DNA of 64,000 bases, from contig OX485805.1 of assembly GCA_950295325.1 (NCBI GenBank), positions 42,184,758-42,248,757 on the forward strand. Direction: 5' to 3'. Origin of the DNA: Polytrichum commune (Eukaryota; Streptophyta; Polytrichopsida; Polytrichales; Polytrichaceae). Positions 15,246-60,495 of this stretch are shown piece after piece (positions within the stretch are counted from its first letter, which is position 1; the number at the start of each line of letters is the position of its first letter). The translations under genes were made by a program, and so were the position numbers. The notes below the pieces were generated by a model that did no database searches, was not told the origin of the DNA, and was given only the letters and a program-made list of their open reading frames with translations.

Positions 15246-15261
15246 AACGACGAGAAGTGCC

Positions 15262-15472
15262 CGGGAAGTTTATGGGCATATTCTGTCAAGATTCTAGTGA
15301 TTGTAAATCCAACCGCTTACATGTTCACATCTTCCGGTTCTGTTTTATTCATTTGAGGTATATTCTAATAATTCCTCTAAAATGACCGGTAAATTTCCTG
15401 AAGTCTTGACCTTCAACCGGTTATTTCTCGAACTCAACCGGTTCAACTGCAACCAACCGCCGGTTCTTCCCG
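15262..15472. repeat. AACCGGTT-rich MITE family, copy 1
   Basis: Aligns with 56,390-56,606 and 60,029-60,340. Shared features are a TTGAGGTATATTCTA block, CCTCTAAAATGAYCGGT, TTCAACCGGTTATTTCT, and an end of CGGTTCTYCCC. The full terminal inverted repeats are visible only in the 60-kb copy. Confidence 0.65.
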
Positions 15473-20897: not shown

Positions 20898-23638
20898 GAA
20901 AAGAAAAGATAACGCCCGTATTATGCATACCGGCGTGAATGTGAGCCCGTTAACCCTATATTGATCTTGGGAATCTGAGATGCAATATTGGGTGTTATGC
21001 CTCCTGTGGGAGGTGGGCTCTGGTGTAGTGCAAGATAATTTCCACCTTATGGTGGTGGGATAGGGTTTTGTTTGTTGTCAAGTTTCCTTTTATTTAAGAC
21101 CAAATAGGTAAGATATTTAATGGCATTTTGGTGTATGTTTTTCATGAGGGTTTTGATGTGGGATTTGGGGATTTTCAGGTTGGTTAATTGTTCGATGGAG
21201 TTCTCGTGAATAGCACCTCTTACTCCTGCGGTGATAGTAATGAGGGGGTTGGTATTCCATCCGTTAGCTCTTAGTGTGGTAATTAGCGGGTCATATTTGT
21301 TGTGTTTGTGTGTGCGGGCTTGTTCGGGGAATCTATCGTGGCAGTAGGTGAATTCAATGAATTGTACGGTGTGGCTTGGGGAGGGTAGTATTGGAGTTTG
21401 CATTTGGTTGGGAGCTCTAATAATGCACATTATGTCTGGTCTTAATTTGGCTTGACAATGGCATGGTGCTTGCGTGCATATACATTGGAGGAGCCAGTCG
21501 GGAATTGTTTGGTCTTGGGGTTGGTTGGGTAATTTGCCCGCGTTGGTCAAGGTGAAGAACCTGGTGTTGTTATTGGCTTGTAGGGTTTGGGAAATGAGGT
21601 GGGTTGCTTTATTGTGTCTTGCGATTCGTAGGCCTTTTAGGTATGGGTGTTCGCATGTGGCCAGATAATAGGTGTGGCCATGTGTCTCTATCATTGGTGC
21701 GACATAGTGTGCAGTTGGGGTTTTGGTATTTAAGGGGCCAAAATATATTTTTCCTATGGTTACCCATATATTGGGCATATCTAAATTTTAGAGTTTGGGT
21801 AATTTGTGTGTCGGGTATTTTATCATGTTTCCAAAAATGGTTGGAAAGTTTTTGGTTGATTTCTTCATTCGAGAGCCATTTGGCTACGTATGGGAATTTT
21901 TGTTTGGCTAGTGAAGTTTCTCGGTTTTCGTGATCTTTCATTATGAATGTGTGGAGGTTGCGGATGGCTCCATCATGTGTAGTTGTGGGGGAGGTTGCTA
22001 GCCAGTAGGGGGTAGCGTGTGCTATGTGTATGTGTGGCGTGTTTTCCGGTTTGTCTTTGAGTGTCCCTTCGTTGGCTAGGGCATCCGCCATTTCATTGCC
22101 TCTAATTCCCGTGTGTGCGCGTACTTTGTGTATGTGTATCATGTGTGGGGTCCAATATATTTGGTGGACGATGGCTGCGATGAGTAATTTATCGGGGTGG
22201 TGGTGTTGAGATGTTGGGTGTTGGATGTTGGATGTGGTTGTTTATTAGGTAGATGTTGTTAAGGTTGTCTGTGAATATATGTGTGTCTATTTAGGTAGTT
22301 TGTATAGTTTTTATGGCTATAAGTATGGCGTTGAGCTCAGCTCTTAGAATATTGGGATATCCCAGTAATCTTTCGGCTATTTGGGTATTGTTGTTGGGAC
22401 TGTATACCCCTGAGCCCGCGATATTGCCGACTATTTGTCCCTCGGAATTTTTGGAAGGTGGGATGAAGGACCCGTCCGTATATATGCATTGTTGTGGGTG
22501 GTATTTGAGGGGGTGTATGTGGTTGTATGCGGGGGGTAGGGGTAGTGTTATGTTGTTGTTGGTGGGGATGGTGTGGTTTATGGGAGCGGTTTTCCATGTT
22601 TTGGAAAATTTAATGTGATAATTGTTGGGAGTGGGTTGAATGGGATGGATGTCTATGTGGGTGTTGGTAATTCTTTTTAGGACTCTATTTAGATTGTTTG
22701 GGAATTGTTGGTGAAGTGTTGGGGTTAGCTGGTTGTGTATGTATATGATGGATGTGAGTGATGGTTCCGTATATTGGTAATATTGTGGCCATTTTGGCGT
22801 GGGTTTATATTGTATGGTATGAGGTGGTATGGTAGAGATGACATGGATATCTACTCCTTTGGTGAGGGTTAATTTTTGTGGTGTCCAATCTTGGTGGTTA
22901 ATTATGAGGATTGTGCTTGTCTGTGTATCTTCTTTGGCGGCCATTCGAGCCCAATGAATGGCTTGTAAGGTTGTACTATAGTCTGTTGGGAATGCTAGGC
23001 CCCTACCACTCCATTTGGACGATTGTGCATGTCCTAGGGATCCGAATATCATGTCTCGGGTGTGTGGGGAGTGGTATTGTGTGAGTTGTGTGGGACACGT
23101 AAGTGGGGAGGAATAGTATGAGTGTGTGATTTTGAAGGAGTCTATAAGTAATTTGGTGATTTCCGGGTGTATTGTATGATGTTGATTGTTGGGTAGTATG
23201 TGTTTAGGTTTTTTCTTGGGGAGTATGGTAATGTATATTTGTATGAGCCATAATATTTCTGTTTCGAAGTTTTGTACTGGGGGATGTAGGGAGTTGGTTA
23301 GGCGGATTAGGTTGTTTTGAGAGAAGCGTGCCCATAGCCATTCTAGTCTCTCCATGGTAATGGTAGCGAGGAATTGTCCATTTTGGTCATATATGTGGGA
23401 TTCCACGGCGCTTGTTTGTATGGTAGGTTTATTGGTAATGATATCTTTGTCCGGGTTACATTCTTGTGTGGATGTTTTGAGGTTGGTGATCCTAAGCGGG
23501 GGGTGTATGTGTTTTTTATCCTTTGTTTGGGTGTAGTTGAGGTAGTTGTCATATGTTTGGGTGGCTTTTTGTATATGGGTGGTGGTGTGGTATCTTGTTA
23601 TTAGTAGGAGGTTGTGTTCTAAAATGATGTTGTCCGGG
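20898..23638 (-). mobile_element. Outer LINE, 3' part (RNase H to 3' end)
   Basis: The minus strand encodes the C-terminal half of a LINE polyprotein. Pieces are 23,638-22,291 (linker and start of RNase H, with YTDGSFIPP and RAELNA), 22,142-21,609 (end of RNase H with KVRAHTGIRGNEMADALA, then the first CTLC of a zinc knuckle) and 21,778-21,047 (RPDIMC, EFTYC and KHNKYDPLI of a PD-(D/E)XK-like domain). A nonsense codon interrupts RNase H and a frameshift lies in the knuckle. The 3' tail is CT-rich. The 10-bp TSD TCCTGAAATT is at 20,888-20,897 and 39,201-39,210. The 5' continuation is at 38,212-39,200. Confidence 0.85.
21047..21778 (-). pseudogene. PD-(D/E)XK-like endonuclease domain of outer LINE
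   Basis: This 243-codon frame aligns along its length with the C-terminal domain of the inner LINE (36,993-37,724). Conserved are CxC-n-CHC, RPDI-C, QFIEFTYC, a K-NKY-PLI step, GW-n-PLI and TAG-R. The spaced Asp, Glu-x-Thr and Lys suit a restriction-like endonuclease fold as in R2-type LINEs (remote similarity judged by eye). It was once the C-terminus of ORF2 and is now cut off by an upstream frameshift. Confidence 0.55.
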
Positions 23639-25731
23639 ACCATAACCCTAAGTGGTTGGAGGAACTGGAATCACGATGTACCAAAGTTGAAGAGCTCCGT
23701 CTCTCTGGAGAGGTGTGTGATTAAGGAGTAAGCCGCTGCATCCTGATGTGTGAGCTGCTAGAAGTTGGGCTAGCAGTTAACCCCACACACATCAGTGTAG
23801 CAGTTAGGTTAAGTGTGTTTTGTTGAGGTGCAGAAACGTGTTGGAAGGGGTACATGTGAAGGTTTTAGATCAGATCTAGTGATACAAGCAAATGTGTATG
23901 ATTGTTCAGATCTCAAGGTTAGGGTATTTTGATGTGTTGGGGCCCTTGTTGGTTGCATTGAGTTTGAAACTTCATTTACTATGCTTGTAGATAGCTAGAT
24001 CTGCATTGATACATCACATTAGAGGGAAACAGAGCACCAAGGATACAAACACATTTGTACTCATGGTCATATGCTAATCCAGAAAAACATTTCAAAAAAT
24101 AGATAGTACAACACACAGAAGGTGCCATAGGCTCCTTCTTTCTCTTACACTCATTATAGTCACATTCTATCTACCCTCTCTACCTAGCATAGATCTTGCA
24201 CAGCAGTGGCAGCAACTAGGGAGATCCACAACCCTTCAGCAACAGAATGTGGAGGAGATCCACATCAACTTCGAACAGCAGCTAGGGAGATCCAAAGGTC
24301 TTCAGCGGCAGGATCGGGAGGACACCGACTTCGAACAGCAACTAGGGAGAGCCACAGCCCTACATCGACAAAATGCGGAGGAGATCGACACCGACTTCGA
24401 ACGGCAGGTAAGCGTCACCGAAAAGACCAAGCGGGAAGGAAGATCAGTATTCGAAGAACACCTACACCGAAAAAACGAGACCACCGAGAGAAGCGAGGAG
24501 ACCTACACCGAAGAGAGTCACACTGAAGGAAGATCGGAGATCTGCGGCGAAAGGATCAAGCAAGAAGAAAGTCCAGCAAACTACATCAAAAACCACCTAC
24601 ACCAAAACCGTGACACCACCGAGGGAAGCTCGAAGATCCACACCGAAGGGATCCACACTGCAGGCTGCCGGCGCGAAGAACGAAGGAGCCAATATCGAGG
24701 GGAAAAGTACGAGAAACCTGCTACGAGGGCGAGGAAACAACGAAAAGAAAGCAGGAGCCTACGTGAGGGGGAGAAGCCTGTCTAGAGCAAGAGGAAAACC
24801 CAGGAGCCTGCAAACACCGTGATCAAAACGCCGAAAACAAACCAAAGAAAGGAGATCCAGCAGAGGAAGCAAAGACCGACACCAGGAGAGCCAGCACCGA
24901 GGAAGAACTTGTGTGAGGGAAGAGGAGAACCAGCACCGAGGAAGAACCTGCGCGAGGGAAGTAGGAGCCGGTGCAAGGAGAGGAAACGACTGCGAAAAAG
25001 AACGAACCTGCGATTGGGAGGGAGGAGCCTGCGCAAGAGAAGGCCGAAGCCTGAAGCCGCCGAAAAGCCTGTATTGAGCAAGAAGAAGACCCAGGAGCCT
25101 ACAACCGCCGTGACCAAAACGCCGAAAACAAACCAAAAAGAAGAAAGGAGGAGATCCAGCAAAGGCCGAAACCAAGAGAGCCAGCACCGAAGAGAGCCAG
25201 CACCGAAGAGAGCCAGCACCACCGAGGAAGAACCAGCACGAGGAAAGCAGGAGTCGGTGCAAGGAGAGGAAGCGACTGCGAGAAAGGAAGAGCCTGCGAG
25301 TGGGAGGGAGGTGCCAGCGCAAGAGTAGCCTGAAGCCTGAAGCCGACGAGAAGCCTGTCTTGAGCAAGAAGAAGACCAAGGTGCCTACAACCACCGTGAC
25401 CAAACCTGTCTTGAGCAAGAAGAAGACCCAGGAGCCTACAACCGCCGTGACCAAAACGCCGAAAACAAACCAAAAAGAAGAAAGGAGGAAACCCAGCAAA
25501 GGCCGAAACCAGGAGAGCCAGCACCGAGGAGAGCCAACACCGAGGAAGAACCAGCACGAGGAAAGCAGGAGCCGGTGCGAGGAGAGGAAGCGACTGCGAG
25601 AAAGGAAGAGCCTGAGAGTGGGAGGGAGGAGCCTGCGCAAGAGAAGGCTGAAGCCTATAGCCGCCGAGGCCTCTGGACGGGAAAGCAGCCGAGAGAGAGC
25701 TGCGAGACCGAAACGGGTAACCGGTAGCAAC
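23639..25731 (+). repeat. LINE 5' UTR with two sets of tandem repeats
   Basis: About 24,205-24,410 holds three ~65-bp units (GGGAGATCCACA, then CGACTTCGAACAGCA). About 24,782-25,675 holds three units of ~290-300 bp, each starting near TTGAGCAAGAAGAAGACC. They pass through GCCGAAAACAAACCAAA, GAGAGCCAGCACCGA and GTGGGAGGGAGG to AAGCCTGAAGCCGCCGA. The last unit has a small internal duplication. The region is purine-rich on the sense strand. Tandem 5' monomers with promoter activity are known in some animal L1 elements; the same role here is inference. Open frames exist in it, but they follow the repeat composition. Confidence 0.65.
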
Positions 25732-27513
25732 ATGGCCGAGGGTAGAAAAGTAGGCACAGAAAAAATGACATCCCAGAAAACCTCCCAACGCAAAAGTAAC
25801 GGAGCAGATGGTGGAAGCCTAGCTCCAATTACTCTTGCAAAATTTTTTGGGGAGGATGAGGACATTATGGAGATAGACTCTCCAGCTCAAAGTCTCAAAA
25901 GACTTTTGGAAGAAAAAGCAAAAAATCAAAGCAAAGGGGCAGCTCAAGGGAAGCGTACTAGAGAACCCATCAAGATGGAATCCGTTCTCACACACCCAAT
26001 GAAATTTAGATTTTGGTTAGGCTTTGAGGTTATGGAAAAATTAGCTAAGGAGCAAGGAGTCGAGGAGCTTTTCAATGATGAATCCATTGCCGACCGCATC
26101 ACAAGAGGCATCCCCCGCAAAGAGGCCGAAGAATTGGAGTGTGTAAGTATCTCTTACCCAAGAGTCCCTCAAACCCTATACCCAAGTGAGAGGAGTGATG
26201 GCATAAATGGGCAACATCTTAACCTAACCCAACTACCACAAGAAATAGAAATTGACCCAATTTCTAAGCTTTTCAAGGATTTTCACATTGCTATCCACTT
26301 TCAACTTCCCAACCACCCTCTTATGCACAATCATATCAAAGAGCTAGTACAAGAGAGGCTAGATGACATGAAGATCGCACTAGGAACCAACCTTATAGAA
26401 CCCATATCCGTTCTATGCATGAGTGTGAAAAGGGGAGGAATGAAAGGAGTGTGGGCCGGGATCATTAAACTCCATCTCCTTAACCCTCACATTGACGGGA
26501 TTGCCTTACTAACCGGGCTAAGGGCCTTTATCCTTCACCTTGAGCCACACTCAAGTGTTGGAAGCCTAGGCAAGGTTTGTAAGTCCTACCATACAATTGC
26601 TAGGAGTAACAACCTATCAATCAAAATTTCCAATGACACACTTGTGGGCATAACCGCTCATGACCTCTTTCTAGACATTCTAGAAAATAGCTTTAAGAGA
26701 GGGCACAAATTTGAAATAGTAGAAGTTCAAAAGGGTACCCCCAATAACCATGCGTATATTGTGACCCCCACCCCTCTCCAAGCCAAAAAAATTCAAACTT
26801 TACAAGTCTCTACCCATCACCAAATTCTAGAGGGGCAAGTTACCAAAGGCCCCTCCCTCACCCAAGAGCAAAAGGCTAAAAAAGAGGCCCTCATCCTCAC
26901 CTTTTACAACCTCCCTATTCTAATGAACATCGAGGATACCTCCCTAGAGATTTGTAAAATCCTAGGGACCAAAAATGTTGTGTCAATATGGTTTCACAAG
27001 CAAGATGGGCTAAGGCATAACGGGAGTGCAAACGTAGAGTGTCTCAACCCCTATGTCTATAGGAAATTCTTAGGCAAAGAGGCAAAAATCGGGGCCTACC
27101 ACGTGGAAATTACCCCGCACCGAAGGAGCCTAGAAGGAAGTGAAAAACCATCCAAGGAGTTACTAGTCAAATTCGGCTTCGAAGACACTAATACGTGTTT
27201 GGTAAATACGGTCGAAGCCATCCAAAACCAAACACAAGGAGAGGTAAAAGTGACAAATGAGGATGTTCTTACCGTGATGAAAGAGGCCATAGAGGAAGGT
27301 AATAAAAAGCTCAAACTTGAACTCCACAAGGATATGAAGGAGTTAAAAAATGACATTGTAAAAGAAGCTCATTTATATGCGGATGAAATAAATGAAAAAC
27401 TCAAAAAACAAATGATGGAAATTCAAAGTACCCTATCCTTGGCATTAACGGGGATGCAACAAATCACGGGAGTGGTTAAACCAATGCTCAAAGACCAACC
27501 AAATGTGGAGTGA
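25732..27513 (+). CDS. LINE ORF1 protein, 593 residues
   Basis: The frame runs open to 27,513. The start is the ATG at 25,732 (MAEGRKVG), where protein-like composition begins after the purine-rich repeats. Upstream in-frame sequence is repeat-derived. The N-terminus is basic with an acidic patch (FGEDEDIMEIDSP). A central segment (KKEALILTFYNLPILM to RKFLGKEAKIGAYHVEI) has the alternation of an RRM-like fold, with NLP in the first strand and GSANVEC in the RNP1 position. The last ~90 residues are Lys/Glu/Leu-rich and likely coiled-coil. LINE ORF1 proteins are RNA-binding chaperones that coat the element RNA. There are no stops or frameshifts, unlike ORF2. There is no CCHC knuckle. Confidence 0.7.
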   Translation: MAEGRKVGTEKMTSQKTSQRKSNGADGGSLAPITLAKFFGEDEDIMEIDSPAQSLKRLLEEKAKNQSKGAAQGKRTREPIKMESVLTHPMKFRFWLGFEVMEKLAKEQGVEELFNDESIADRITRGIPRKEAEELECVSISYPRVPQTLYPSERSDGINGQHLNLTQLPQEIEIDPISKLFKDFHIAIHFQLPNHPLMHNHIKELVQERLDDMKIALGTNLIEPISVLCMSVKRGGMKGVWAGIIKLHLLNPHIDGIALLTGLRAFILHLEPHSSVGSLGKVCKSYHTIARSNNLSIKISNDTLVGITAHDLFLDILENSFKRGHKFEIVEVQKGTPNNHAYIVTPTPLQAKKIQTLQVSTHHQILEGQVTKGPSLTQEQKAKKEALILTFYNLPILMNIEDTSLEICKILGTKNVVSIWFHKQDGLRHNGSANVECLNPYVYRKFLGKEAKIGAYHVEITPHRRSLEGSEKPSKELLVKFGFEDTNTCLVNTVEAIQNQTQGEVKVTNEDVLTVMKEAIEEGNKKLKLELHKDMKELKNDIVKEAHLYADEINEKLKKQMMEIQSTLSLALTGMQQITGVVKPMLKDQPNVE

Positions 27514-27907
27514 CCACAAACCGCCAAGAAACCCAAAAGTATTTACCTAAATACTATCATATACGTATATACATATATATATACGTGCAATATATACATA
27601 TACAATATACAATATATACATATACAATACATACATATTAAATATATATATATAGTATATACATACTAAAATAAATACAATATACCGTACAAAAGGTACC
27701 ATACAATACCACAAACCCCATTTGGTATACAAATACAATACCCACCCCCTATATCCGAATACATACATAATACAATACACCTACCCTATACTCAAACCAA
27801 AATACAATACCAAAAAACCCAAAAAATACCATCGTATTACACACAAAGGCTACCACCGTATAACACCCAACTACCACCCACATTACAAAAAATACCCAAA
27901 AAATAAA
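27514..27907 (+). repeat. AT microsatellite spacer between LINE ORF1 and ORF2
   Basis: Runs of ATATAC and ATACAATAT words occupy about 27,545-27,660. The remainder is AC-rich and open in the ORF2 frame but without an ATG, so ORF2 is taken to begin at 27,908. Confidence 0.6.
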
Positions 27908-29755
27908 ATGGCCTCGGCCTACCGGCCTCGCCATCAAACTAAATGCAAATACAACTCAACAACAAACAACTATATTAAAATACACTTCATGCCTAAACAA
28001 CTAAAACACATTATACCCACCCTACCCACCACTACCCCTACAACAAAATCTACACCTAACAAATACCAAAAACCAAACAAGAAAAAACCAAAAAAACTCT
28101 CATACAAAACAACCCGGCCACACTTACAATATAGGTACCCCCCAAAAAACAAACTTCATCATACATACAAACCGCATCTAAACTATAAGTTACATCCCAA
28201 ACAAAGATCATACTCAAAACTAAATCTCCCCCGTACATCTAAACAATTAAATATCATAATACACACTCCGAATTCCGTAAAATACTCAAAACCCATACAA
28301 CACTCAAGGCACCTCCTTTACCCTAAACACGGATCCCATCCAAAACACATAAACTACTTAAAATACATATCTCGTCCAATACATAACCCACCATATAAAC
28401 TAGGAGCCTACCCTAACCTAAAGGCACGCCAACAAAATAAACTACATCCTAAACATAAACCCCACCTAAAACCCATACTCTACCCCCAATCAAAACCCAA
28501 CACCTACTCAAAATACAAACAACTTCCAACAAACAATGTGGCCTCGGCCTACCGGCCTCGCCACAAAAAGAACCGGAAAACTCACCTCACCAATTGGATA
28601 CCCACCCTAATGACAAACCAAGTACCTAAACAATATACGAACTTATACACCTTACTCAAACAACATAAAAACATAACACCCATCCTACACCACTCCCCTT
28701 CCACAACAAAACTAACACCCCTCAAAAACCTAAATCCAAACAAAACAAAACCGAAAACAATTAACATATATAGATATTCACCTAATATTGCAAGCACCTC
28801 AAGGATAGAATTTACAAAAATACCAAATTACATCATTAACTACCCAAAACACAACCCCATAACACAACACACTACGCATCCAAATTTTACCGATCACCCA
28901 AAAGTAAAAATACAATGGCCCCTCTCACAACACAAATACTTCCAAAGTAAAAAACTTTATACTAAAGTCAAAACACACCCAAGGCATAGATTACAACATC
29001 AACACAAAACTCAACCAAAACCTAAAACAAGCCCTTTAACCAATCAATTAAAAAATATAACACTCCCCCCACCACAACATACTCACACAACACAAGAACC
29101 ACCCCGGTCCCACTTAAAACACTTCCCCCACCCAAGATATAGCTCACAATTAAAACACGATCTCCATCCATGGAATAAGTTACACCCAAACTATAAAGGC
29201 CATCTACAACATAAACTTCACCCAAAAATCAAATTATACCCAAACCACAAACACCTTCAACCTCACTCAAAATACATATCTCATCTAAAACATAGACTCC
29301 CTCCAAGACACAATTCTCATCCAAAAAATAAACTCCATCCGAAAAACAAAGTAACCTCAACCTACCAACCCCGCCTCTCAACAAACATCAAAACACACCT
29401 AAAAAACAAATGCTCCAAAAATAAACCCTACCCTAACTTCGAACATCATAACAAAACCAAACAACTATTAAGCCCCCATATAAATTACCAACCCCACTCA
29501 AAAAACACAATGGCCTCGGCCTACCGGCCTCACCACACATATAATAACAAATACCACTTCATAAACAATTGGAAACCTAAATCAATAACAAGCCAAAAAT
29601 CTACAAATAATACAAAACCACACTTCTCACCCATACAAATAGAAAAAACCATACCCGCTATACCTAACCTCTTTACCACAACCAAATTTACAATCACAAT
29701 ATATCTAAAAACAAACATGAAAAACCCCAAAATAATTCACTTTCATGGATACTAC

Positions 29756-29812
29756 TTCATTAACAAACTAGAATTACTAAAATGCGGAGACATAGAATCC
29801 AACCCCGGACCA
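29756..29812 (+). other. 2A-like ribosome-skipping peptide in LINE ORF2
   Basis: In frame with the long ORF2 the sequence encodes LELLKCGDIESNPGP. This fits the 2A consensus D(V/I)ExNPGP exactly, with the usual leucine-rich helix and a glycine before the core. Skipping would occur between the Gly at 29,807-29,809 and the Pro at 29,810-29,812. The extension would be released from the catalytic part, which would begin with Pro-Met. 2A-like peptides are known in some non-LTR retrotransposons (trypanosome L1Tc and several animal clades). Activity here is inferred from the motif. Confidence 0.85.
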
Positions 29813-30460
29813 ATGCCTAACATCCTACATACACATCCTGCCACACACAAAAAGAGAGCCAAGATATACTTCATCCCAAATACTATAAAACTACAACTTG
29901 AATACCAACACATAGCAAATACATTTGCTCCCATACTAAAAAATACACACCACCTACACCATCAAGCAATTATTACCCACCCACACCTACACCAATACAT
30001 CCAAACACAAAGGCAATCACCACTAACCCATATACTATATGCCATAGTTATTACCATCCACCCCTCAATAGACACATGCAATAACATACTAGCCCGCCCC
30101 CAAAATTACCACTTTAACAACATATGGACCAACACATTAATTATTAGACTAACTAACCTCACCAACCCCCCCGAAAGGCACATATTGACACCCCACCCCT
30201 ACACAACATTTGTAGAAAATAATCAAGATATAATACTTCCAAAAAACTCAATACACACCAAAATATATGATTTTATCCACAACCAAGCTACCACACCCAC
30301 ATCAATCATCCTCAAGAAAGAATTCCCCTACCTTCCAAACCAGTTAATAACCGAAACACTTAGATGTCTAGAAAATATAAACGAATACTCACACCCACCC
30401 CCACTCCCGGCCGCTCCCACTCCAATCACACGAATAAACTCTATCACCGAGCATGAAACA

Positions 30461-31245
30461 AGCATAATAACTTGGAATGCGTCATCGCTCAACACATCAC
30501 TACTAAACTTACAAGACTTAATCAACAACTCTCTAAATAACACAGCAATCATTCATATCCAAGAAACCAAACTCACTGCAAACAAATCTACTAAATATAT
30601 ACAAAACTTATTTCCGGAATTCAAACTCATTTCCGGAATTCAAACTCATTTTCAACAACACACACGCACTCACAAGGTGCATCCAACAAAGAATGCCCTA
30701 TACCCCCGGAAGAGGTGGCCTACTCACACTTATCCATCACAAATATGCATTCCCGGGAAATGTCACCAAAATTCCCACATCAGCAAACATCTCTCCGTAC
30801 CTACAAGTAATAAAAATAAATAACCATCCACTAACACCTTGGCTAATTATACACATGTATATGTCTACGCACCTAGAAGATACATATCTTATCCCACACC
30901 TCAAGAATGAAATCACTAAACAAATTACTACACACCCCAATCACATATACGCACTGTGTGGCGACTTCAACAGAGATATTGCACTTAGGGGCAGACAAAA
31001 TAACAACACTACTACCCCCCCACAAGAAGAGGACCTCCAATGGAAAAATTTTACCACATCTCTCGACTTAGAATATATCACTACCAACACTAGTATTTTC
31101 AGACAAGGTGGCTACAACTACACATCAACAAGTCTAATAGATGGTTTCTACATTCACTCCCCTGACAACAGCAAATTTACCTCCACTACAAACACAAACA
31201 TGAATCTAAATTCAGATCACTACCCAGTCACATTACACATCCCAC
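30461..31245 (+). pseudogene. APE-type endonuclease domain of inner LINE ORF2
   Basis: The endonuclease/exonuclease/phosphatase signatures are TWNASSL and IQETKL before the frameshift at 30,611-30,648, then GRGGLLTLIH, CGDFNRD and a final SDHYPVTL at about 31,212. Asn, Glu, the GDFN Asp/Asn pair and the SDH His cover the catalytic set. In APE-type LINEs this domain nicks the target DNA to prime reverse transcription. Domain order and residues are normal apart from the frame break, so the enzyme was probably active before the duplication. Confidence 0.85.
30611..30648 (+). other. 19-bp tandem duplication that breaks ORF2
   Basis: The 19-bp word starting TTTCCGGAATTC occurs twice head to tail (30,611-30,629 and 30,630-30,648). 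One extra copy adds 19 bp and shifts the frame by one base inside the endonuclease. The downstream frame is open from 30,693 at the latest. Confidence 0.85.
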
Positions 31246-32180
31246 ACAACACACTTATTGCCAGACCTCCGCCCTCTACAAACACCTCACCAACTAGGAT
31301 ACTGAATCCGATACCACCAGAAAACCTAGAGAAATTTAACATAACATTCTTCGAAGAAAACTCCATCCAACTTAAAGAACTTACCACACTACTAGAAGAC
31401 CACCAACACTTAACACCTGATCAATGGCAAAATGCATGCACATCATTGGATTACATTATAAACAAAATCTCAGAAACAATTGAAAAAACCTGTAGAGCTG
31501 ACCCTCTACCCAACCTCACAAACAGAACATCACAACAAGGCGGTTTTTTACCACGCAAACTAGCTAGAGAATGGAAAAGACACCTCAACACATATCACCT
31601 CATCAAGAAAACCATTTACATTGTACAAAATGACCCAAACTGGCAAGTACACCCCATCCTAAACGATATACGAAACCACCAACACGTCAACATCTCACAC
31701 CCACCTACTATAACAGCATCTCCTGTCGAATGGATTAACACCATAGCAACTATCGCAAAAACGGCAAATAAAGAAGCCAGGAAAATCACCATAAAATACA
31801 CCAGAGATTGCATTCTAAAAGCCGTATCAAAATACCGTCAAATGTATGAAAAAAATCCCAAGAAAATGAATCGGAAAGTCTTCAAGAATACTAAAACTTC
31901 ACCTCTTGACTCCATCATTGATAGACAAAACAACATATTAACCAACCCTGAAGACATTGCTTCAGAGATTTACGCACAACAATCCATCAGCAACCGCCCA
32001 ACAGTCCCCACATGCCACCATCAAAATATACATCCAATTCACTGTACATGTGGAGTAAGGCAATACCCTTGGCACGACTTAGATGGATACACAATAGACA
32101 GACGAGGAGAACCCCAAATTCCCTTGCACACATACTTTGATCAAGAAACATACGACTTCTGTCTTAAAAACCTAAGTAAC

Positions 32181-34140
32181 AATAAAGCCCCAGGTCCAGA
32201 CAAAATCCCCAACTCAATTCTAAAAAATATGCCTCCACGCTTTCACAAAATATTGTTCTTATTCTTTAAACACTGCTATAAACAAAAACAAATCCCAGCA
32301 TCATGGAAAACTAGGCTAACAGTTTTACTATATAAAAAAGGTAACCCATCACAACTAACAAACCACAGAACTATTGCACTAGCTAACACTATATATAAAT
32401 TATACACAAGCACATTAACCTCTATCCTATCAGCATACGGAGAAAGATACCAAATACTACACGATAGCCAAGAAGGGTTCAGAGCAGAAAGAAGCACCTC
32501 TAGACAAATTCAAATACTAATTGCAGCACTTGAAGACGTCAGATTCACGAACCAAAATATATACATTCTTTACATTGACTTCAAAAACGCCTTTAGCTCC
32601 ATTGACCACGCCAGATTATTAGCCATAATGAAAGACCTGGGTTACCCCAATGACTCCATAAACCTCATAGGAAACATATACTCACAATCATCAACCATAT
32701 TTACCGGCGAACACTTCGGTAAAACCTTACCAATCCACATCCAAAGAGGTACAATACAAGGCGATACCCTTAGCCCATACATATTTATTATATTCTTGGA
32801 ACCCCTACTTAGATGGCTGCAACAAGGAAATAATGGATATACCTTCTGTCGCAACCCTTGCTAGGTCCCTTAACAATCTTGCCAATTTTCCTTTCTAGCA
32901 AAGGTTACGAGCGCTAACCCTTCGCATACCGCCATGCTAATGGTTAACTCTTCTTACCCCGGACCATATAATTCAAAGGAGGGGAACCAACCCTCCTACT
33001 TTGCTTTCGGGACTCACCCCTTTAATCGGTAACCACTCCTTAGATGTGGACTTCCATCCATGGAAGTCCAATCTTATGTTGATCATCGCGTTGCCGGAGC
33101 AACACTACAACAACCCGAACCATACTAGGCAACTATGGCCTCACAATGGGCCAATGCCCATGGAGGCCTTGCCGTTCGGCCTCGGGTGGGTGAGGCCACA
33201 CCACCTCACCCATATAAGCCTCTAGGACTCTACACGGAGCCCCTACCCCACCGCCAACCAACCTCTTGTCTCTCTACCAAGAGTTGGGGCCAAGTGGACA
33301 TTTTCCCTTAGCTGCTGGGCCTAGAACCCCCCCAGCAGCTTCAGACCATCATAACTTCCTTGTATGATGTCTGATCATAACAACCAACCACTTCATCTTC
33401 ATCTACGCTTCACGTAGATGCCGATGGACTCCTCGCTTGCCCCATTCGGGCAAGTCTTGAGGAAGTTATGCCTGTTTGAACCTTGGCAGTCCCGGGAATC
33501 ACTCCCAGGCACTCCTGTACCAGGGCGCTGTCCCGGGACAGCACCCCACTCAAATGGCCATAACTCCTAGCTCACACCTCCGATTGAGGTGATCTTGAGC
33601 ATTCTAGAATCACCACGCCATGCATAGCTCATGGCCTCACCCTCATGCCTCCTAGTCTTTGTGGGTGGGAGGCGTTCCCAACGCCCGGGGCCCTCACTCA
33701 CACTAGGATCACTTGGGCCCTCTCACCAACGGCGCCACAAGTCCCGGGTGTCACTCCGGGGTCCCCCTTGTGCCCATGGTGTTTTGGGCACTCCTCATGG
33801 AGAGGTGCGCGACACCTTCGGTACGTCCAGAGTCACAATTTCATCAGCAGCATATGCAGACGATCTTGCAGCAATCGCCAACAAACTAGAAGCATTACAA
33901 ACACAACTAAACAAACTAGACAAATTCTGTGAATGGGCAGGCATGGACCTAGGTACACCAAAATGTGCAGTAACTGGATGCCCAAACAAATCTAAACTCA
34001 ATCCCACAACCTTCAAGGCCCTAATCCAATCCACCAACATAAATTATAGAAACCAACCTATACCAGTCCTAAACCAGCATGAACCCTATACATACCTAGG
34101 AATAAATCTTGCATCATCATTCAAATGGAAAACACAAATA
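32181..34140 (+). pseudogene. Reverse transcriptase domain of inner LINE, split by a solo LTR
   Basis: RT blocks in order are NKAPGPDKIPNSIL (32,181), LLYKKGNP with NHRTIALANTIYKLYT, QEGFRAERST, motif A LYIDFKNAF (Asp at 32,577), motif B GTIQGDTLSP, and motif C AYADD at 33,850-33,864. A 968-bp LTR lies between motifs B and C. Sequence on both sides is in the same frame once the LTR and one TSD copy are disregarded. The thumb region extends to about 34,950, after which the frame shifts in a C-rich run near 34,888. Confidence 0.88.
32847..33814 (+). mobile_element. Solo LTR, 968 bp
   Basis: Starts TGTCGC and ends GCGACA (TG...CA with 6-bp inverted ends). It is flanked by the 5-bp duplication CCTTC at 32,842-32,846 and 33,815-33,819. 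This is the classic footprint of an LTR retrotransposon reduced to one LTR by recombination. A CATATAAG box at about 33,210 could be the LTR promoter TATA. The last 374 bp match window positions 1-382. No coding region or primer-binding site is present, so Copia or Gypsy cannot be decided. Confidence 0.9.
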
Positions 34141-34870
34141 AATACCACCACAACTAAAGTAATTAAACAGTGTCAAGCCCTAATAGCTTGCCCAGCTACT
34201 ATGAAACAAAAAATCAACATGGCAGACACAGTCATACGCGCTGGAATAGCATATAGTTTTTATGCAGTACCATACTCCATACCAGCCAAAAAAAAACTAG
34301 ACAAAAAGATCATCGCACTCCATAAAACAATATGCGGAATACCTAAATGCACATCTAATATCGCCACGCAACTCCCCCACAACTTATTTGGAATTGAAGC
34401 ATTTTCACTACAAAATGCCTATTTAAGGTGCATTGGTGAACAATTACAAAATGCCCTCAATGACAAAGGGAGAATTGGGAAAATATATACTGGCCTAGTA
34501 CAATTCATACTCGCTACACATGGGGGCTCTCAAGAAATCACTCGCATTAAATACCATCACTGTGTTAGATCACCCATCGCTAGAACATTGTTCCTACTAA
34601 AACATAAAACCGGAGTCCATCTAAAAAGCACAATAAACAACTTTCTACTAACCCCATCCTCACTTGAAACTGCATGGATGCAAGAAGCACAAATGCTACA
34701 TGGTCTAAACCCCAACACCTCACTTAAACTACTACACAAACTACTTATACATAATATAACAACACTAGACCAAATTACCATGCCTGGTATCACTCTAATG
34801 AACAAGGACGAATTCAAAATATATCACTCCACTCCTTCTAAACTCATCCAAAACGCACTTAACATAGCTA

Positions 34871-35995
34871 ATGAACTATTCTGCCACCCCCCCCTGCAAT
34901 CAATGCCCCCTACCCTGCCAACAACACCACCCACCAAGATCCCTTAAAAACAAATATATAATAAGAAATCACAACATCCTACCTCACACACCGACCGCCC
35001 CCGTACACCCCCCTAACCCCCCCATCCCTCATCTACCTCCTTCCCCCAACAACATGTTTAAAGACCCCCGACAATTCCCCATACACAAAATACTCAATCA
35101 CAAACAAAAACAATCTAACGACCACAATGGAATAAAAAGAACAGTCACGTCATACCTGTGTCAATGGACCACAACAAATAACAACACATATAATAAATGG
35201 CGAACCCAAAGGGACCTATACCCCTACTGTGAAGCCGACATATGCAACCACAACACAAACCTACTTATCCAATATTACACAAAAAGACAACACAATCATT
35301 TTTCAAACATCATTAACGCTTACTTCACCACGGAACAACACCGAGACACAAGATACGTCACACCACCCACAATAATTCCGCTAGCACATATTTCTATTAG
35401 TGAATGCAACCCAGAAAACGACATCGAAACAAATTCTGATACTATCCAAACACAATTCGATGTCGCCCACATATACGAAGACAATGGAAGGCACCTCATC
35501 ACCATCCCAAAAGCTAGACTAACATGGCTATGGAAACAATATCAATTGGCAAAAAATACCACACATGGTCTAGAACCATCTACCCAATCATTCGAAACTG
35601 AAATTGTCTGGCTATACCAGAGATACAAATATCGTATCCCAAAGAACGACCCACTCAAAAGAGCCCAATATACAATACCAACACAAATACTAGATCTACT
35701 AATTACAACATTCAATATTTCTCATTCTTACTTTTCATCCCCAGTTACATGTCCTACACAATTCACCCAATTCTACTCACCCTTTTCACGAGACATAATA
35801 TTTGGATCCTTAGGAAAAATGTTTGACTATAAATGGCAAGGAATTGGATACGCACATCCTCACACCTCAACAGACCTACAACACAGGCCCATTCCCAGAC
35901 ACACATGTCATTGCCCATTTTGCCGCTGACACAATCACATACGAAGAACCAACAATACCCCCCGAGCTCAATACTATAAGGAAAGAACCATCTAC
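34871..35995 (+). pseudogene. LINE ORF2 linker between RT and RNase H
   Basis: The frame 34,871-35,929 aligns with 23,643-22,900 (minus) of the outer LINE: shared ISECNPENDIETN/STQECNPDKDIITN, FETEIVWLYQRY, SHSYFSSPVTCPTQFTQ and RDIIFGSLG. It is out of frame with RT (indel in a C-run near 34,888). It changes frame again near 35,890, followed by a stop near 36,000. I recognise no domain, but conservation between the two copies shows it was part of the polyprotein. Confidence 0.65.
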
Positions 35996-36050
35996 CATGT
36001 AAATATTCTGTATCCATCATCAAAATAATAACATAGGTACCTACGAACAA

Positions 36051-36986
36051 ATGAAGCTAATACACGACACTGCGAATAACCTCCAAATACTACAAAGCCA
36101 CACTCAAATTGCACCACCCACCCCCCCGAACATCACCGTTAACCCTAGTAAAAAATGGGTTAAATCAAACTACCCAAACACACCCCTATACAATAATAAC
36201 CCCACCCCACAAATCCCAAACTACCAAACCAACTTACCGCTAAAATTCCACCCCCAATTTAGCTACTACACAGATGGATCCTTTATAAAACCCAAAGAAA
36301 TTGCCCCTGGAGTATGGAGAAGAGAAAGAGCTGGATATAGTATCTATAGCCCCAAAGGCTTAAATATCGCCAAAAGACTCCATGGGCATCAAAACATACT
36401 ACGTGCAGAAATGATGGCTATACATAAAACACTAAGAATCATCAATACACAATTCCCTAACGAACCCGCATTTATATTCACAGATAGTCTAAACGTACTA
36501 TACCTACTCAATACACAAATCAAACACCCCACTCTCCATAATAGTCACCCAGACCAAACCACACTCAACTCCATGGTAAAAATCCTCCAAGACCGTACAC
36601 AGCCTATCACACTATACAAAGTCAGGGCACACGTCAATATTGACGGTAATGAAAAAGTTGATAAACTAGCAAAAGACGGGTTAGAATTAGAACACAGAAT
36701 CGCCATACACCCATACGAACATGCCCACGCCACCCCATACTATTATCAAAAGGACGTCTGGGCCTCAATGGAAGAAGTCCCAGACAAAGGTCCAGTAAGA
36801 TTCTTAGAAAAACAAATTAAAAAATATGACAAGGAAACTAATATAGCAGTCATGGCCACACAAACCCCCAACACGTGTAAATGGACAGAAAATATAGACA
36901 TTGACAAAGAACTATCCAACGAATTCTGGACAAATCCCTCAATCACAAACAAACAAAAATCATGCCTTATTAAATTCCGCACATGA
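36051..36986 (+). pseudogene. RNase H domain of inner LINE ORF2
   Basis: Residues of a retroelement RNase H are visible: YYTDGSF (36,264), RAEMMAI, FIFTDSLNVLYLLN and KVRAHVNIDGNEKVDKLA, giving the Asp, Glu, Asp and His/Asp set. The frame ends at a TGA (36,984-36,986), where the outer LINE has sense codons. The same frame then continues into the zinc knuckle, so a single nonsense change separates them. Confidence 0.85.
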
Positions 36987-36992
36987 ACATAC

Positions 36993-37724
36993 ATGGGTAA
37001 TGCTAGAAAACAAATGTTTTTCGGTCACCAGAGGTACCCCTCCATCACGTGTCCCATATGCAACTCAAACGATCCAGACACTTGGCTACATGTACTACTG
37101 AAATGTAACCAACAAAATATACACTCACTACGAATTAAAAGGCATAACAAAGCAGTTGGAGAAATTAGGAAGCTCCTAATCTCGTCCGAAAAATCCCGAT
37201 GTTTTACCCTCATGAATGCCGGCACCTTCAATAATAATCCCCAAGAAAATACTGTCCCCAATTGGCTACTCCCTTGTGAATGTAACACACAAAGATGTCA
37301 TTGCAATGCAAGGTTCAGACCTGACATACTTTGCGTCAAAGGATTACGATATCAAAATGACCCTCCCATCGACGTTAACCCTAACCTCACCATACAATTT
37401 ATTGAATTCACATATTGTAACGACATATTTTCCCCAGAAACTATAGAAGCAAAAAACAACAAATACAAACCACTGATTGACAATATCGCTTCCAGAGGAT
37501 GGAAAATCGAACCACTTATTGTACTCACAGCTGGGGCCCGAGCTACGGCCCACATCCCATCTATGAAAATACTAGAAGAAAATCTCAAAATACCCATGGT
37601 TACCATCAAAAATACCTTTAAAAACATTAATACCATTGCAATACAATATGCCATGTCCATCCTCCTACATAAGAGGAGACTTGAAAACCACCAACCACTC
37701 CCCCAAAACTTAGACCCCCCATAA
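36993..37724 (+). pseudogene. CCHC knuckle and PD-(D/E)XK-like endonuclease domain of inner LINE
   Basis: CPIC...H...C at 37,050-37,106 has spacing Cx2C-x9-H-x4C, like the knuckle that precedes the restriction-like endonuclease of R2-type LINEs. It is followed by a CEC/CHC cysteine cluster, RPDILC (Asp at 37,323), QFIEFTYC (Glu at 37,404), then a Lys-rich AKNNKY step and GW...PLI. This order suits a PD-(D/E)XK nuclease. With the upstream APE domain the element would carry two endonucleases, as in Dualen. The homology is remote and judged by eye. The frame is otherwise intact. Confidence 0.6.
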
Positions 37725-38199
37725 AACCCAAAAACTTATATTATATCTAGTATCTACGTACAACTCAAAATGAGGGATGGTGCCGGCAGGTTGGTACAAA
37801 TTTCCTGCCTTTTACTCACTAGCAGCACCAAGTCATGTGTTACATTTTAGACGATCATACGGACTCGACTGGAATCGAACCCGGAACGTCTTAACTCAAA
37901 CATCCTCCCACAACCAACCGAGGAATCATGACTTGGCGTTCACTCTCATTACAAAAAACATGAATTATACCTAAAAAGCATGCACCTCCGTGGACCATTA
38001 TCGGCCCTTGTTATTTGTTTCTTGATTGTTGTTTCTCGGTTACTGTTTCTCTGTTACTATAGTGTCCATCCTCGAAAGAGGAGAGTAGTTTTGTCCCAGC
38101 TTCCCCATGTCCTGTGGGCATCGGGTTGTTGGCATTACGAACGGACACTTTATTCACGCCGGCCCCTAAAAGGGACCGGAGTTTCTATCTATCTATCTA
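37725..38199 (+). other. LINE 3' UTR with terminal stem-loop and TCTA tail
   Basis: Just before the end, CCGGCCCCTAAAAGGGACCGG (split as CCGG-c-CCCT / AGGG-a-CCGG) can form a stem-loop. It is followed by GTTTC and a run of four TCTA-type units. The outer LINE has a matching TTCACGCCGG block and a hairpin of different sequence (CCGGTAT / ATACGGG) before its CT-rich tail. Conserved 3' hairpins are recognition sites for RT in some LINEs; that role is inference here. Confidence 0.6.
37840..37950 (-). other. tRNA-like sequence, antisense in LINE 3' UTR
   Basis: The minus strand contains GGGTTCGATTCC, a perfect pol III B-box. About 45 bp upstream lies CTCGGTTGGTTGTGGGAGG, resembling a D-arm/A-box. 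The T-stem does not pair well and no acceptor stem closes, so this is not a functional tRNA gene. It may be a tRNA-derived (SINE-like) remnant. Confidence 0.3.
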
Positions 38200-39200
38200 A
38201 TGTTGTCCGGGTGTAAGAGGTCCTCCTCAAGGCGCCATTGTTGTGTGGTGCCATGCATAGTGAGCCATTGACATTGATATTTTCTCTTGAAGGCTTGTGC
38301 TCCCCATTTGTCATTTCGGTTGGTGGTTTTTGTATCAACTATTTAATGGATGGCCCGCCCTAGTGTGGAGTCTACGTGGTGGGGTTGGTGGTTAAGGTCT
38401 AGAGTGGTATTTGTGGGTGTTGTGTGTGGTGGTTGGGGATGATTTTCAAGGGGGTTGGGTGTTGTTGTGATCGGGAATATTATTGTGGCTTGGTGTAGGG
38501 CTTCTTTGATGGTTTTGGGTGCAAGTTTGTGTATGTTTCGGTATTCCTCTTGTGTGAGTATGGCCTTGGTGTTCTTGTTTTTAATTTGTGCTAGTGTTGT
38601 AATGCCATGTGTGCAAAGCTTGTCTAGGTATTTTTGGGATTTTGTTTTGGAGGCATCATCAAGGGTGGTGTATATTGGGTTGGATAGCCATGCTTGCTCT
38701 AGTGGGGTTTTCCTAAGGGGGAATGCTCGATTGGCCGTGGTAACATGTATTTCGTATTCTTTTGTGAGTAGGAAGAGGGTTTGGGCTATGGGTGACCTTG
38801 TACATGCTTGTTGTTTAAGTTTCGGGAGGTGGAGTGAACCTCCGTATTTAGCTGCTATGTATTTAGTTAGGCCTTGATATATGTCTCCTAGTTGGTATGG
38901 GTCGTTGAGGGCTTGTAGTAATTGTTGGCCTATGCAGTGTATGTAGTTGGGTAAGAGGGAGGAGACTCCTATGCCAAAGTTTTCATTTGTAAGGTGTGTG
39001 AGAATGTTGGTAGAGCTTTTAGGTATGTTGCATATTTCTTTGGTTAGATTGTCTATTATTTTATCCAATTTCGTAATGTCGGGTTTGGAGAATGGGACTG
39101 CATAATATGCATATGCTATACGGGGTTTTATAACTGTGTTTAGTATCTTGATTTTTTGTTTGAGACTGGCTGGGGATAAGGATAGTAGTTTACTTTGTAG
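38200..39200 (-). mobile_element. Outer LINE, 5' part (RT thumb and linker)
   Basis: The minus-strand frame 39,200-38,343 aligns with 34,150-34,940 of the inner LINE (KQKIKILNTVIKPRIAYAYYAVPFS, FGI-n-CIGQQLLQALND, RSPIAQTLFLL). It continues through 38,342-38,212 into the part left at 23,638. The element is 5'-truncated within RT, right at the TSD copy 39,201-39,210. Its total length without the inner element is about 3.7 kb. Confidence 0.85.
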
Positions 39201-48040: not shown

Positions 48041-49840
48041 TCAATTCATATAGAGTTTCTTCAAACTTGTCAAACCCCCTAATCCTCCCGGAATCTTCTT
48101 CAAGGATTTGCATCCACCGAAATCCAATTCCTCCAACGCCACGAGCGTACACACTCCAGATGGAAATTCTTCCAAGGCCTCGCATCCCCACATGCGAAGT
48201 ACCTTCAAACTTGTCAAACCCCCTAATCCTCCCGGAATCTTCTTCAAGGATTTGCATCCACCAAATATCAATTCCTCCAACGCCACGAGCGTACACACTC
48301 CGGATGGAAATTCTTCCAAGGCCTCGCATCCCCACATGCGAAGTACCTTCAAACTTGTCAAACTCCCTAATCCTCCCGGAATCTTCTTCAAGGATTTGCA
48401 TCCACCGAAATTCAATTCGTCCAACTCCACGAGCATGCACACTCCGGATGGAAATTCTTCTAAGGCCTCGCATCCATCCATGTAGAGTTTCTTCAAACTT
48501 GTCAAACCCCCTAATCCTCCCGGAATCGTCTTCAAGGATTTGCATCTAGGAAAACTCAATGTCTCCAACGCCATGAGCGTGCACACTCCGGATGGAAATT
48601 CTTCCAAGGCCTCGCATTCCCACATGTGGAGTTCCTTCAAACTTGTCAAACCCCCTAATCCTCCCGGAATCCTCTTCAAGGATTTGCATCCGCCGAAATT
48701 CAATTCGGCCAACGCCACGAGCATGCACACTCCGGATGGAAATTCTTCCAATGCCTCGCATCCATTCATGTATAGTTTCTTCAAACTTGTCAAACCCCCT
48801 AATCCTCCCGGAATCTTCTTCAAGGATTTGCATCTAGGGAAACTCAATGTCTCCAACGCCACGAGTGTGCACACTCCGGATGGAAATTCTCCCAAGCCCT
48901 CGCATTCCCACATGTGGAGTTCCTTCAAACTTGTCAAACCCCCTAATCCTCCCGGAATCTTCTTCAAGGATTTGCATCCACCGAAATTCAATTCCTCCAA
49001 CGCCACCAGCGTGCACACTCCCCATGGAAATTCTTCCAAGGCCTTGCATCCCCACATGCGAAGTACCTTCAAACTTGTCAAACCCCCTAATCCTCCCGGA
49101 ATCTTCTTCAAGGATTTGCATCCACCAAAATTCAATTCCTCCAACGCCACGAGCGTGCACACTCCGGATGGAAATTCTTCCAAGGCCTCGCATCCATTCA
49201 TGTAGAGTTTCTTCAAACTTGTCAGACCCCCTAATCCTCCTAGAATCTTCTTCAACGATGTGCATGTAGGGAAACTCAATGTCTCCAATGCCACGAGCGT
49301 GCACACTCTGGATGGAAATTCTTCCAAAGCCTCACATCCCCACATGCGAAGTACCTTCAAACTTGTCAAACCTCCTAATCCTCCCAGAATCTTCTTCAAG
49401 GATTTGCATCCACCGAAATTCAATTCTTCCAACGCCACCAACGTGCACATTCCCCATGGAAATTCTTCCAAGGCCTCGCATCCCCACATGCGAAGTACCT
49501 TCAAACTTGTCAACCCCCCTAATCCTCCCGGAATCCTCTTCAAGGATTTGCATCCACCAAAATTCAATTCCTCCAACGCCACGAGCGTGCACACTCCGGA
49601 TGGAAATTCTTCCAAGGCCTCGCATCCATTCATGTATAGTTTCTTCAAACTTGTCAAACCCCCTAATCCTCCCGGAATCTTCTTCAACGACTTGCATCTA
49701 GGGAAACTCAATGTCTCCAACGTTACGAGCGTGCACACTCCGGATGGAAATTTTTCCAAGGCCTCGCATTCCCACATGCGAAGTACCTTCAAACTTGTCA
49801 AACCCCCTAATCCTCCCAGAATCTTCTTCAAGGATTTGCA
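48041..49840 (-). repeat. 144-bp LRR repeat array
   Basis: Twelve and a half consecutive units encode CKSLKKIPGGLGGLTSLK (variable) CEALEEFPSGVCTLVALE (variable). Variable slots take few alternatives: KVLRMWGC, KKLYMNGC or KELHMWEC, and ELNFGG or TLSFPR. Units two to seven repeat as a 432-bp higher-order block of three, with shortened versions after. DNA identity between units is very high, including silent sites. Confidence 0.88.
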
Positions 49841-52800: not shown

Positions 52801-53336
52801 CCCTTTACTCGCCCCATTAGATACCGTACAAGCATGCAATTCTTGCAACTTGCACTTTTGCACATTTCCAAATGCTTTGAAAACCTTTCATACATTGAAT
52901 TATGGTCCTCTGCAACTTCATCAATGCATGTTGGAAAAAATGTCGTAGAGCTTTCAATCTTCAAAATTTCAGCTTCTCGACTAGGAAAAACATGGCGAAG
53001 TATGTTGCACATTGTGTGGAAAGAACATTCGAAGTCCTCGAGAAGCTCTCTAAAGGTCTCTTTGTTATTCATTTGCTTCACCACAACCCGACACCAATCA
53101 TCCTTGCAGCATTCTTCTATCACACATTTTGCCTTGTTTACAACTAAGAGCATGTCTTCCTCCACTCGATGAAAGACTTTCCCATGTGAACTATTGGTGA
53201 TCGTTTCAATTGCTTGCACACCCTTGCGTAAATTGTCCAATAAATTTACACATTGCCGTCTATTCAAAACTTCCTTTGACAATGATAATTTGGGAAAATT
53301 TGCAATCTCCATTGGTACCCGTACAAAGTTTGTCAT
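48041..53336 (-). CDS. Protein kinase-NB-ARC-LRR immune receptor (PNL class)
   Basis: Three exons, 53,336-51,630, 51,467-50,412 and 50,269-48,041, join in frame to 1,663 residues. Residues ~15-150 are helical, resembling the four-helix bundle before MLKL-type kinases (inference). The kinase has a glycine loop (210-217), Lys230 in VTKVIEV, HRDLKPDN (326 on), DFG (353-355) and GYMAPE, so it looks active. The NB-ARC has the P-loop GMGGIGKST (604-612), VLIVVDNV, GSKFIATSR, GLPLSLEV and MHD. The LRR has 12 near-identical 48-residue units. Kinase-NB-ARC-LRR fusions are known from mosses, where they are presumed intracellular immune receptors. The ATG before TNFVRVP is the first in frame. The stop is probably premature. 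Splicing is predicted from GT-AG sites and unbroken frame. Confidence 0.85.
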
Positions 53337-56389: not shown

Positions 56390-56606
56390 AGTGTCCAGGG
56401 AGGAGTTTGAACATAATCAGTCAAAATGCTATTGTTTCTAAGTTCAACCGGTTATATGTTGTGATTTTTCGGTTTTTCTTTATTAATTTGAGGTATATTT
56501 AATAGATTCCTCTAAAATGATTGGTAATTATCCTGAAGTGTTGAACTTCAACTGGTTATTCCTCAAACTCAATCAGTTCATCTGTAAGTAGCTGTCGGTT
56601 CTCCCT
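56390..56606. repeat. AACCGGTT-rich MITE family, copy 2
   Basis: Aligns with 15,262-15,472 and 60,029-60,340. It keeps TTGAGGTATATT, CCTCTAAAATGATTGGTAAT, CTTCAACTGGTTATT and the GGTTCTCCCT end. It starts at a GTGTCCAGGGAG word matching GTGTCCGGGGAG of copy 3, but most of the 5' inverted repeat is deleted. Confidence 0.65.
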
Positions 56607-60340: not shown

Positions 60341-60495
60341 GATCATTGGGAAGATTACCCATCATTTTAGTGGAATCTCCGAGTGCCTCAAAGAAATGAA
60401 GAAACCCCAAAGATATATATCAACATGTGACCAGTTAGACTTGGAAAGACTAGAATCTTACTGTTTATGCCCAAATCTGGTTGACTCCTAAATAT

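Follow-up and report, generated by a model that had tools for sequence, protein, structure and literature searches.

LINE clades known to bear 2A peptides include L1Tc/Ingi in trypanosomes and Rex1, CR1, L2 and Crack in animals, and 2A-bearing non-LTR retrotransposons were reportedly treated by Heras in 2006 and by Odon in 2013. In the trypanosome and animal elements the 2A stands in a polyprotein upstream of endonuclease and reverse transcriptase (RT), an arrangement shared by the moss element described here. The moss clade, however, looks different: its elements have RNase H, a PCIF1-like domain and, probably, an RLE at the C-terminus, besides very long leaders, tandem sites and a plant host.

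The presence of 2A sequences in LINEs is already on record (PMC11512398). A class of StopGo/2A sequences with a leucine-rich lead-in ending in (A/S/C)G has been described, one leucine-rich class (motif 6) was active when tested and, at position 14 (p14), His was more than 95% active in vitro and E14Q 26% or 56% (PMC12846837). Lys does not appear among the p14 residues described as functional in the available part of that work. 2A recoding is generally regarded as mostly viral and rare in cellular genes; almost none was found in plant viruses, although it functions in plants (PMC12846837). The moss sites resemble viral StopGo/2A, as far as these are described there, in the core D(V/I)ExNPGP, the leucine-rich (A/S/C)G lead-in, Asp at p12, the frequency of Ser at p15 and the occurrence at p14 of His, an active variant, and of Gln, a partly active one (PMC12846837). 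They differ in that they lie in retrotransposons of a land plant and have Lys at p14 in one lineage.

LINEs of the Dualen/RandI group have been described in green algae (PMC3636483, PMC4640811, PMC8226300) and are defined by the presence of APE and RLE in one element (PMC3636483, PMC4640811), and RNase H has been reported in them (PMC4640811). They share with the moss element the APE, the RT and the RNase H and probably also the RLE. The 2A sites, the PCIF1-like domain and a hydrophobic leader are extras of the moss element, for which the algal state was not compared.

The motif was found in the window, i.e. the whole 64,000-nucleotide stretch of Polytrichum commune DNA that was analysed, where lead-in and core together make up 19 in-frame codons of the ORF spanning positions 27722-30823. 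The core, DIESNPGP, is an exact match to D(V/I)ExNPGP in the ORF2 frame, as the first-pass annotation had claimed, and the expected leucine-rich lead-in is also there: LELLKCG directly precedes the core in translation and by eye belongs to the leucine-rich (A/S/C)G class. The features are collected in Table 1.

Table 1. Positions of the LINE copy, its parts and related features (window coordinates unless a locus is named).
Feature	Position	Strand	Remarks
Whole LINE copy	23639..38199	+	14,561 bp including a later ~970-bp insert; 12-bp direct repeat flanks both ends
Left 12-bp target-site duplication	23627..23638	.	
Right 12-bp target-site duplication	38200..38211	.	preceded directly by the CTAT-repeat tail of the element
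ORF1	25300..27513	+	737 aa, listed from GTG; no Pfam family
ORF2 leader	27656..29788	+	basic and of low complexity, rich in K, H, P, N and T; no stop in the 2A frame
Three (M/V)ASAYRP(R/H)H repeats	27908..29536 (starts 27908, 28538, 29510)	+	G+C-rich core in an AC-rich background
In-frame ATG	29717..29719	+	24 codons upstream of the core; Met lost in 42/116 gaplessly aligned copies
2A lead-in FINKLELLKCG	29756..29788	+	L-rich, CG at its end
2A core DIESNPGP	29789..29812	+	skip predicted at the junction of Gly (29807-29809) with Pro (29810-29812)
Post-2A region	29813..30466	+	conserved, MPNILHTHPATHKKR...YFIPNTIKLQPEYQH; precedes the endonuclease; right end approximate
APE-type endonuclease	30843..31229	+	Exo_endo_phos_2, E 2.4e-4, under the Pfam cut-off in the window
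RT piece 1	32340-32831	+	Pfam; RT span 32340..34110
Insert splitting the RT	32846..33811	.	~970 bp, unrelated; gap between L031 matches
RT piece 2	33838-34110	+	under the Pfam cut-off
PCIF1_WW-like domain	35555..35842	+	E 3.5e-12; also in L031, L032
RNase H	36258..36683	+	E 1.8e-13
C-terminal region, RLE-like motifs	36942..37703	+	one internal TGA in the window copy; motifs as seen in L031
Hydrophobic ORF2 N-terminus at ATGNNTAG over the ORF1 stop	L032 1473 onward; L036 1022 onward; L141 2511 onward		

The first-pass annotation had also placed the motif between the leader and the catalytic domains. Its position between a basic low-complexity leader and the APE/RT domains was confirmed, but in the window copy the motif frame closes at 30823 and the endonuclease-RT part therefore lies in other frames. 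This copy is decayed, with the early closure of the motif frame and the insert of ~970 bp within the RT. In L031, ORF2 is uninterrupted (2,619 aa in the stretch fetched), the domain order is the same as in the window and the RT is in one piece. The window LINE is a nested Dualen-like insertion: it lies within an older LINE on the minus strand, a member of the related L149/L150-type family, whose flanks on that strand (22274-23638 and 38200-39051) match L150 with 72-74% identity and are continuous across the insertion point.

In the window, L031 and L032 the PCIF1_WW-like domain sits between the RT and the RNase H in ORF2. PCIF1 is a cap-methyltransferase family, and the cellular PCIF1 has the motif NPPF. 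At the position of this motif, the elements studied here have AHPHT/AHPHN, and catalysis by the PCIF1-like domain is therefore doubtful. No match was obtained at E up to 1 when the domain was compared with solved structures by phmmer, and its support comes from Pfam only.

Elsewhere in the window, a kinase-like ORF adjoins NB-ARC-like and leucine-rich repeat ORFs on the minus strand (48041-53345), which by eye is possibly a resistance-type gene of the kinase-NBS-LRR kind. Three other stretches (15247-15471, 56406-56611 and 60138-60353) match the first ~270 bases (5' part) of locus L038 with 80-81% identity, and these are a repeat near the LINEs but separate from them.

The C-terminus of L031 contains C-x2-C...H-x4-C, RHN, RPD, EFTY and K..KY motifs, and another family, 45% identical to it there, has kept them. 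When a profile of the region was compared with solved sequences at E up to 10, the only matches were 8gh6 and 8ibw (E 0.29, 41 positions including the RHN motif). Both entries are named 'Reverse transcriptase-like protein', and we take them to be R2 proteins. In Pfam, the region gave zf-RVT (0.087) and DUF2043 (7e-4), each in one of four members only. The Exo_endo_phos domain reached 26.0 bits in L037 against a cut-off of 24.5 and stood at 24.5 in L038; the APE domain was under the cut-off in the window and in L031, and was not listed for L032. RNase H was present in the window, L031 and L032, and the stretches of L037 and L038 stop before this domain. Among solved sequences, the RT comes closest to R2 proteins (E 2.7e-30). 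At E up to 0.1 eight such sequences are listed, five of them R2-type RTs and three RNase H1, with no L1. Membership in the plant L1 LINEs is thus not supported by these eight matches, no tree having been built. The element is called Dualen-like because both nuclease types in one element define Dualen/RandI, the RLE being only probable here; in the absence of a tree, it looks like a member of this type, with APE, RNase H and probable RLE, and not like an L1. Nothing was found when the RT of L031 was compared with viral contigs, which says little.

Conservation of the site was assessed in 129 copies obtained by homology search (L001-L030 and L042-L140). Since these are only 129 of 982 first-look candidates, the family is larger than the number scored. 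All 129 were read at the site: 108 have the canonical (D/G/C/N)(V/I)ExNPGP, 20 have variants of one or two residues (DIKPNPGP in 10, DMKPNPGP in 1, DIEPHPGP in 2 and seven others once each) and one, L126, is without the region. The site was out of frame with respect to the downstream match in 11 of the 128 copies that have it, apparently (by eye) as a result of indels in or near an A-rich run ~12 codons after the motif. Among the 106 canonical copies with Asp at p12, the free position x is occupied by Pro (50), Ser (35), Leu (19) or Thr (2), and its neighbours hardly change. In the lead-in, L43, L45, L46 and G49 are replaced in 2, 1, 1 and 4 of 116 copies, respectively. The copies are related, so the counts are not independent. 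The 2A motif is a trait of the family. According to the first-pass annotation, related copies that lacked the motif or showed it only out of frame would refute a 2A; the copies read here support its interpretation, although there are no skipping data.

Codon and tree analyses were carried out with the 116 copies that were ungapped in the expected frame, after dropping 13 (the 11 out of frame, L126 for want of the region and L109, which by eye is shifted by one codon), and the motif codons were left out when the tree was inferred. The seven fixed codons of the motif had undergone 53 base changes and 14 changes of amino acid; the corresponding figures for the 92 other codons are 1080 and 496 (p=0.0067). 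On internal branches, the fixed codons had 24 base changes and 2 of amino acid, as opposed to 551 and 219 for the flanks (p=0.0011), and no amino-acid change at all was observed in L43, L45, L46 and G49. On tip branches, where the fixed codons had 29 and 12 such changes and the flanks 529 and 277, there was no difference (p=0.26). A split of this kind between internal and tip branches would be expected of a peptide that matters during mobility and decays afterwards. Conservation amid variable flanks, named in the first-pass annotation as a sign of selection, was also met with, given that the core persists in families whose leaders differ by eye and that selection acts on internal branches and not on tips.

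One lineage complicates this picture. Lys replaces Glu at p14 (E14K) in 11 of the 129 copies, and DIKPNPGP is carried by the L032/L033 lineage, whose open frames are the longest (2,924 and 2,663 aa). LKGGDIKPNPGP is common to six copies of the E14K lineage, for which reason the lineage is taken as young; it is apparently young with open frames. Either Lys at p14 is inactive and the lineage does without skipping, or it is active in its own context. An ancestral 2A that is now mostly a relic, with the current lineages independent of it, would accommodate both E14K in the longest-frame lineage and the P-to-A change at the second site of L037, which ends in NPGA. This explanation is unlikely in view of the selection on internal branches, the retention of the core in further families and the retention of DIEPNPGP in L017, L020 and L030, whose open frames have 2,625 aa.

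The leader, judged from its sequence, is coding. From 27656 to just past NPGP it comprises 720 residues, with 133 Lys plus Arg and 9 Asp plus Glu. At the window locus (L001) 500 upstream codons are open, with 31 and 32 stops in the other forward frames. The upstream frame is open over all 500 fetched codons in 11 of 30 loci, in which each of the other forward frames has 25-32 stops, and the remaining 19 loci have shorter open leaders of 46-398 codons. Self-similarity within the leader is weak (27862-28094 with 28492-28757, and 28527-28776 with 29499-29751). The leader of ~635 residues given in the first-pass annotation is the length counted from the ATG at 27908, which precedes every other in-frame ATG in the open frame; the true start of ORF2 in the window subfamily has not been established.

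In the trypanosome L1Tc, the 2A trims a short N-terminal peptide. A comparable situation in the moss element, with translation starting at the ATG at 29717 and the 2A removing a short N-terminal peptide only, is distinctly unlikely. Met occupies this position in 74 of the 116 gapless copies, but it is not Met in 42, and this ATG is therefore ruled out as a general start. The long in-frame open leaders of 11 of the 30 loci, with every other forward frame stopped 25-32 times, argue against such a start, and so does the start of sister families at the ORF1 stop. An ATG five bases before the ORF1 stop, ATGNNTAG, was sought in 15 loci and was found in 10 of them (L032, L033, L036, L037 and L141-L146) but not in L031, L034, L035, L038 and L040. 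Of these loci, L031-L033 and L141-L146 had been chosen for their long open frames (L032/L033 and L141/L142 are pairs of close relatives); the eight loci L034-L041 had been chosen by the motif and were excluded from the conservation counts. Proteins starting at ATGNNTAG have a related hydrophobic N-terminus, e.g. MDSDHIRYHQWPLLLICCIFSFLYNKE. Their best 17-residue hydropathy means are 1.37-2.02, compared with 1.36 for the RT of L031 and 0.89 for the window leader; the hydropathy of the sister leaders is moderate and the window leader is without a strong hydrophobic segment. In L031 (bases 2143-2167, reverse strand) the ORF2 frame overlaps the end of ORF1 by 22 nt, without an ATG.

The sister families show the core in several forms. 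Among the motif-picked loci, L034, L035 and L040 have DIETNPGP, L036 has DIELNPGP and L037 has DVEPNPGP, and the frames of L039 and L041 are degraded. Four sites (DIQLNPGP, DIELNPGP, DIYTNPGP and DIHPNPGP) are present in one 841-aa frame of L036, two in L037 and two in L038, where the post-2A module is duplicated with them. At least one site was found in each of the six loci L141-L146, which were picked by long frame and not by motif: Gln then His at p14 in L141, L142 (across two frames) and L145, Glu in L143 and L144, and DVKPNPGP in L146. The second family gave 109 match rows, and its site was read in the named loci only.

These sites bear on whether NPGP could be a conserved turn in the ORF2 protein that has a structural role or is recognised by a protease, with no skipping. 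The motif does lie in a conserved coding stretch, and it is not uniquely constrained, as some post-2A windows are equally so: the overlapping windows starting at codons 76, 77 and 78 had 10, 14 and 12 amino-acid changes, compared with 14 in the motif. A turn of this kind is nevertheless very unlikely, since the fixed and free positions match the 2A pattern exactly, the leucine-rich (C/S)G lead-in is retained in otherwise different-looking leaders, module and site have been duplicated as a unit, and the residues that recur at p14, His and Gln, are active or partly active variants in viruses.

The E-type pattern gave 273 matches in the genome (408 Mb, 64 contigs), the H/Q-type pattern 156 and the K-type pattern 22, i.e. 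451 sites altogether, with 0 matches in each of the reversed controls. These DNA patterns also allow Met at p13, and the ORF context was not shown for every match. In the window the degenerate E-type pattern had a single match, and in 100 dinucleotide shuffles it had 0. The same genome has four places that match the LEAFY SAM domain over its cut-off, compared with 0 of 14 control genomes; this domain is confined to plants, in keeping with a plant host. A chance match is thus ruled out by the shuffles, the reversed controls and the copy counts, its probability being negligible, and the earlier statement that the motif is too long for chance was right.

Tandem sites were counted in C1 and in C2 up to 64.14 Mb only. 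In this scope 158 sites were found (Glu 100, Gln 29, His 22 and Lys 7 at p14), of which 119 were single and the others formed 18 clusters of two or three. Within clusters, 19 of 21 spacings are multiples of 3 (P 8e-8, although the copies are related and not independent); for distinct spacings the figure is 15 of 17 (P 4.5e-6). The spacing in the listed clusters was 62-267 codons. His is the last site in 14 of the 18 clusters and Gln the first in 13, and Gln then His is the commonest pair.

The motif and its frame, the conservation and selection, the tandem sites and the architecture have been shown. From these we consider it highly probable that the motif functions as a StopGo/2A, by which a family of Dualen/RandI-like LINEs frees the replicase from the leader; the skipping activity itself is inferred. 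A ribosome translating ORF2 would make the leader, reach NPG|P and release the leader with a C-terminal ...NPG. Translation would then resume, giving a separate replicase that begins with Pro-Met-Pro-Asn and contains the post-2A region, the APE nuclease, the RT, the PCIF1-like domain, the RNase H and the RLE-like nuclease. In the sister families, ORF2 may be started through termination-reinitiation, which is likewise inferred, at the ATG overlapping the ORF1 stop, and would open with a hydrophobic signal- or anchor-like segment that takes the leader to the membrane, a localisation that is also an inference. The presumed benefit is that the 2A would keep the replicase soluble and off the membrane route, and it would perhaps set the dose of leader relative to replicase. 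Failed skipping could yield a second, membrane-bound form, as in the 2As of sea-urchin NLRs. A 2A sequence from a sea-urchin NLR skips in plant leaf cells (PMC4981915). In the sea-urchin proteins, a hydrophobic N-terminus likewise goes with a 2A, and dual targeting results there when skipping fails; the 2A serves as the signal in its own right (PMC4981915), whereas in the LINE it is the start of the leader, apart from the 2A, that is hydrophobic.

The clusters raise the possibility of serial StopGo, for and against which we see the case as evenly balanced. A reinitiated leader with a membrane-type segment would carry as many as four successive 2A-like sites, graded in their p14 residue (often Gln first and His last), and cutting at these would release a number of small proteins from the leader ahead of the replicase and set their ratios; Lys at p14 would be either tuned-down skipping or a form active on the host ribosomes. 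Multi-2A-NPGP picornaviruses similarly have several NPGP per ORF, ~50-150 aa apart as far as described (PMC11512398), compared with the 62-267 codons of the LINE. They differ in that an RNA virus polyprotein is cut there and a LINE leader here, with Gln then His as the commonest pair. If true, serial StopGo would mean that a polyprotein strategy comparable to the one used by multi-2A picornaviruses has evolved inside a retrotransposon.

No plant LINE with a 2A was found among the literature matches listed, which did not cover a 2025 survey of eukaryotic 2As; a first in plants is unproven for the reason that this survey of cellular 2As was not covered. Nor did the literature matches listed include a LINE with serial 2A sites or a Dualen-like element with a 2A, and it is not established that these are new. 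The natural set of variants (Glu, His, Gln and Lys at p14, in single and serial sites) can be used for mapping what the ribosome tolerates, and the family offers a tractable case for asking why a LINE separates its leader from its replicase. The occurrence of hundreds of sites in one plant genome, with selection in the family tested, suggests that plant ribosomes have long been exposed to natural 2As.
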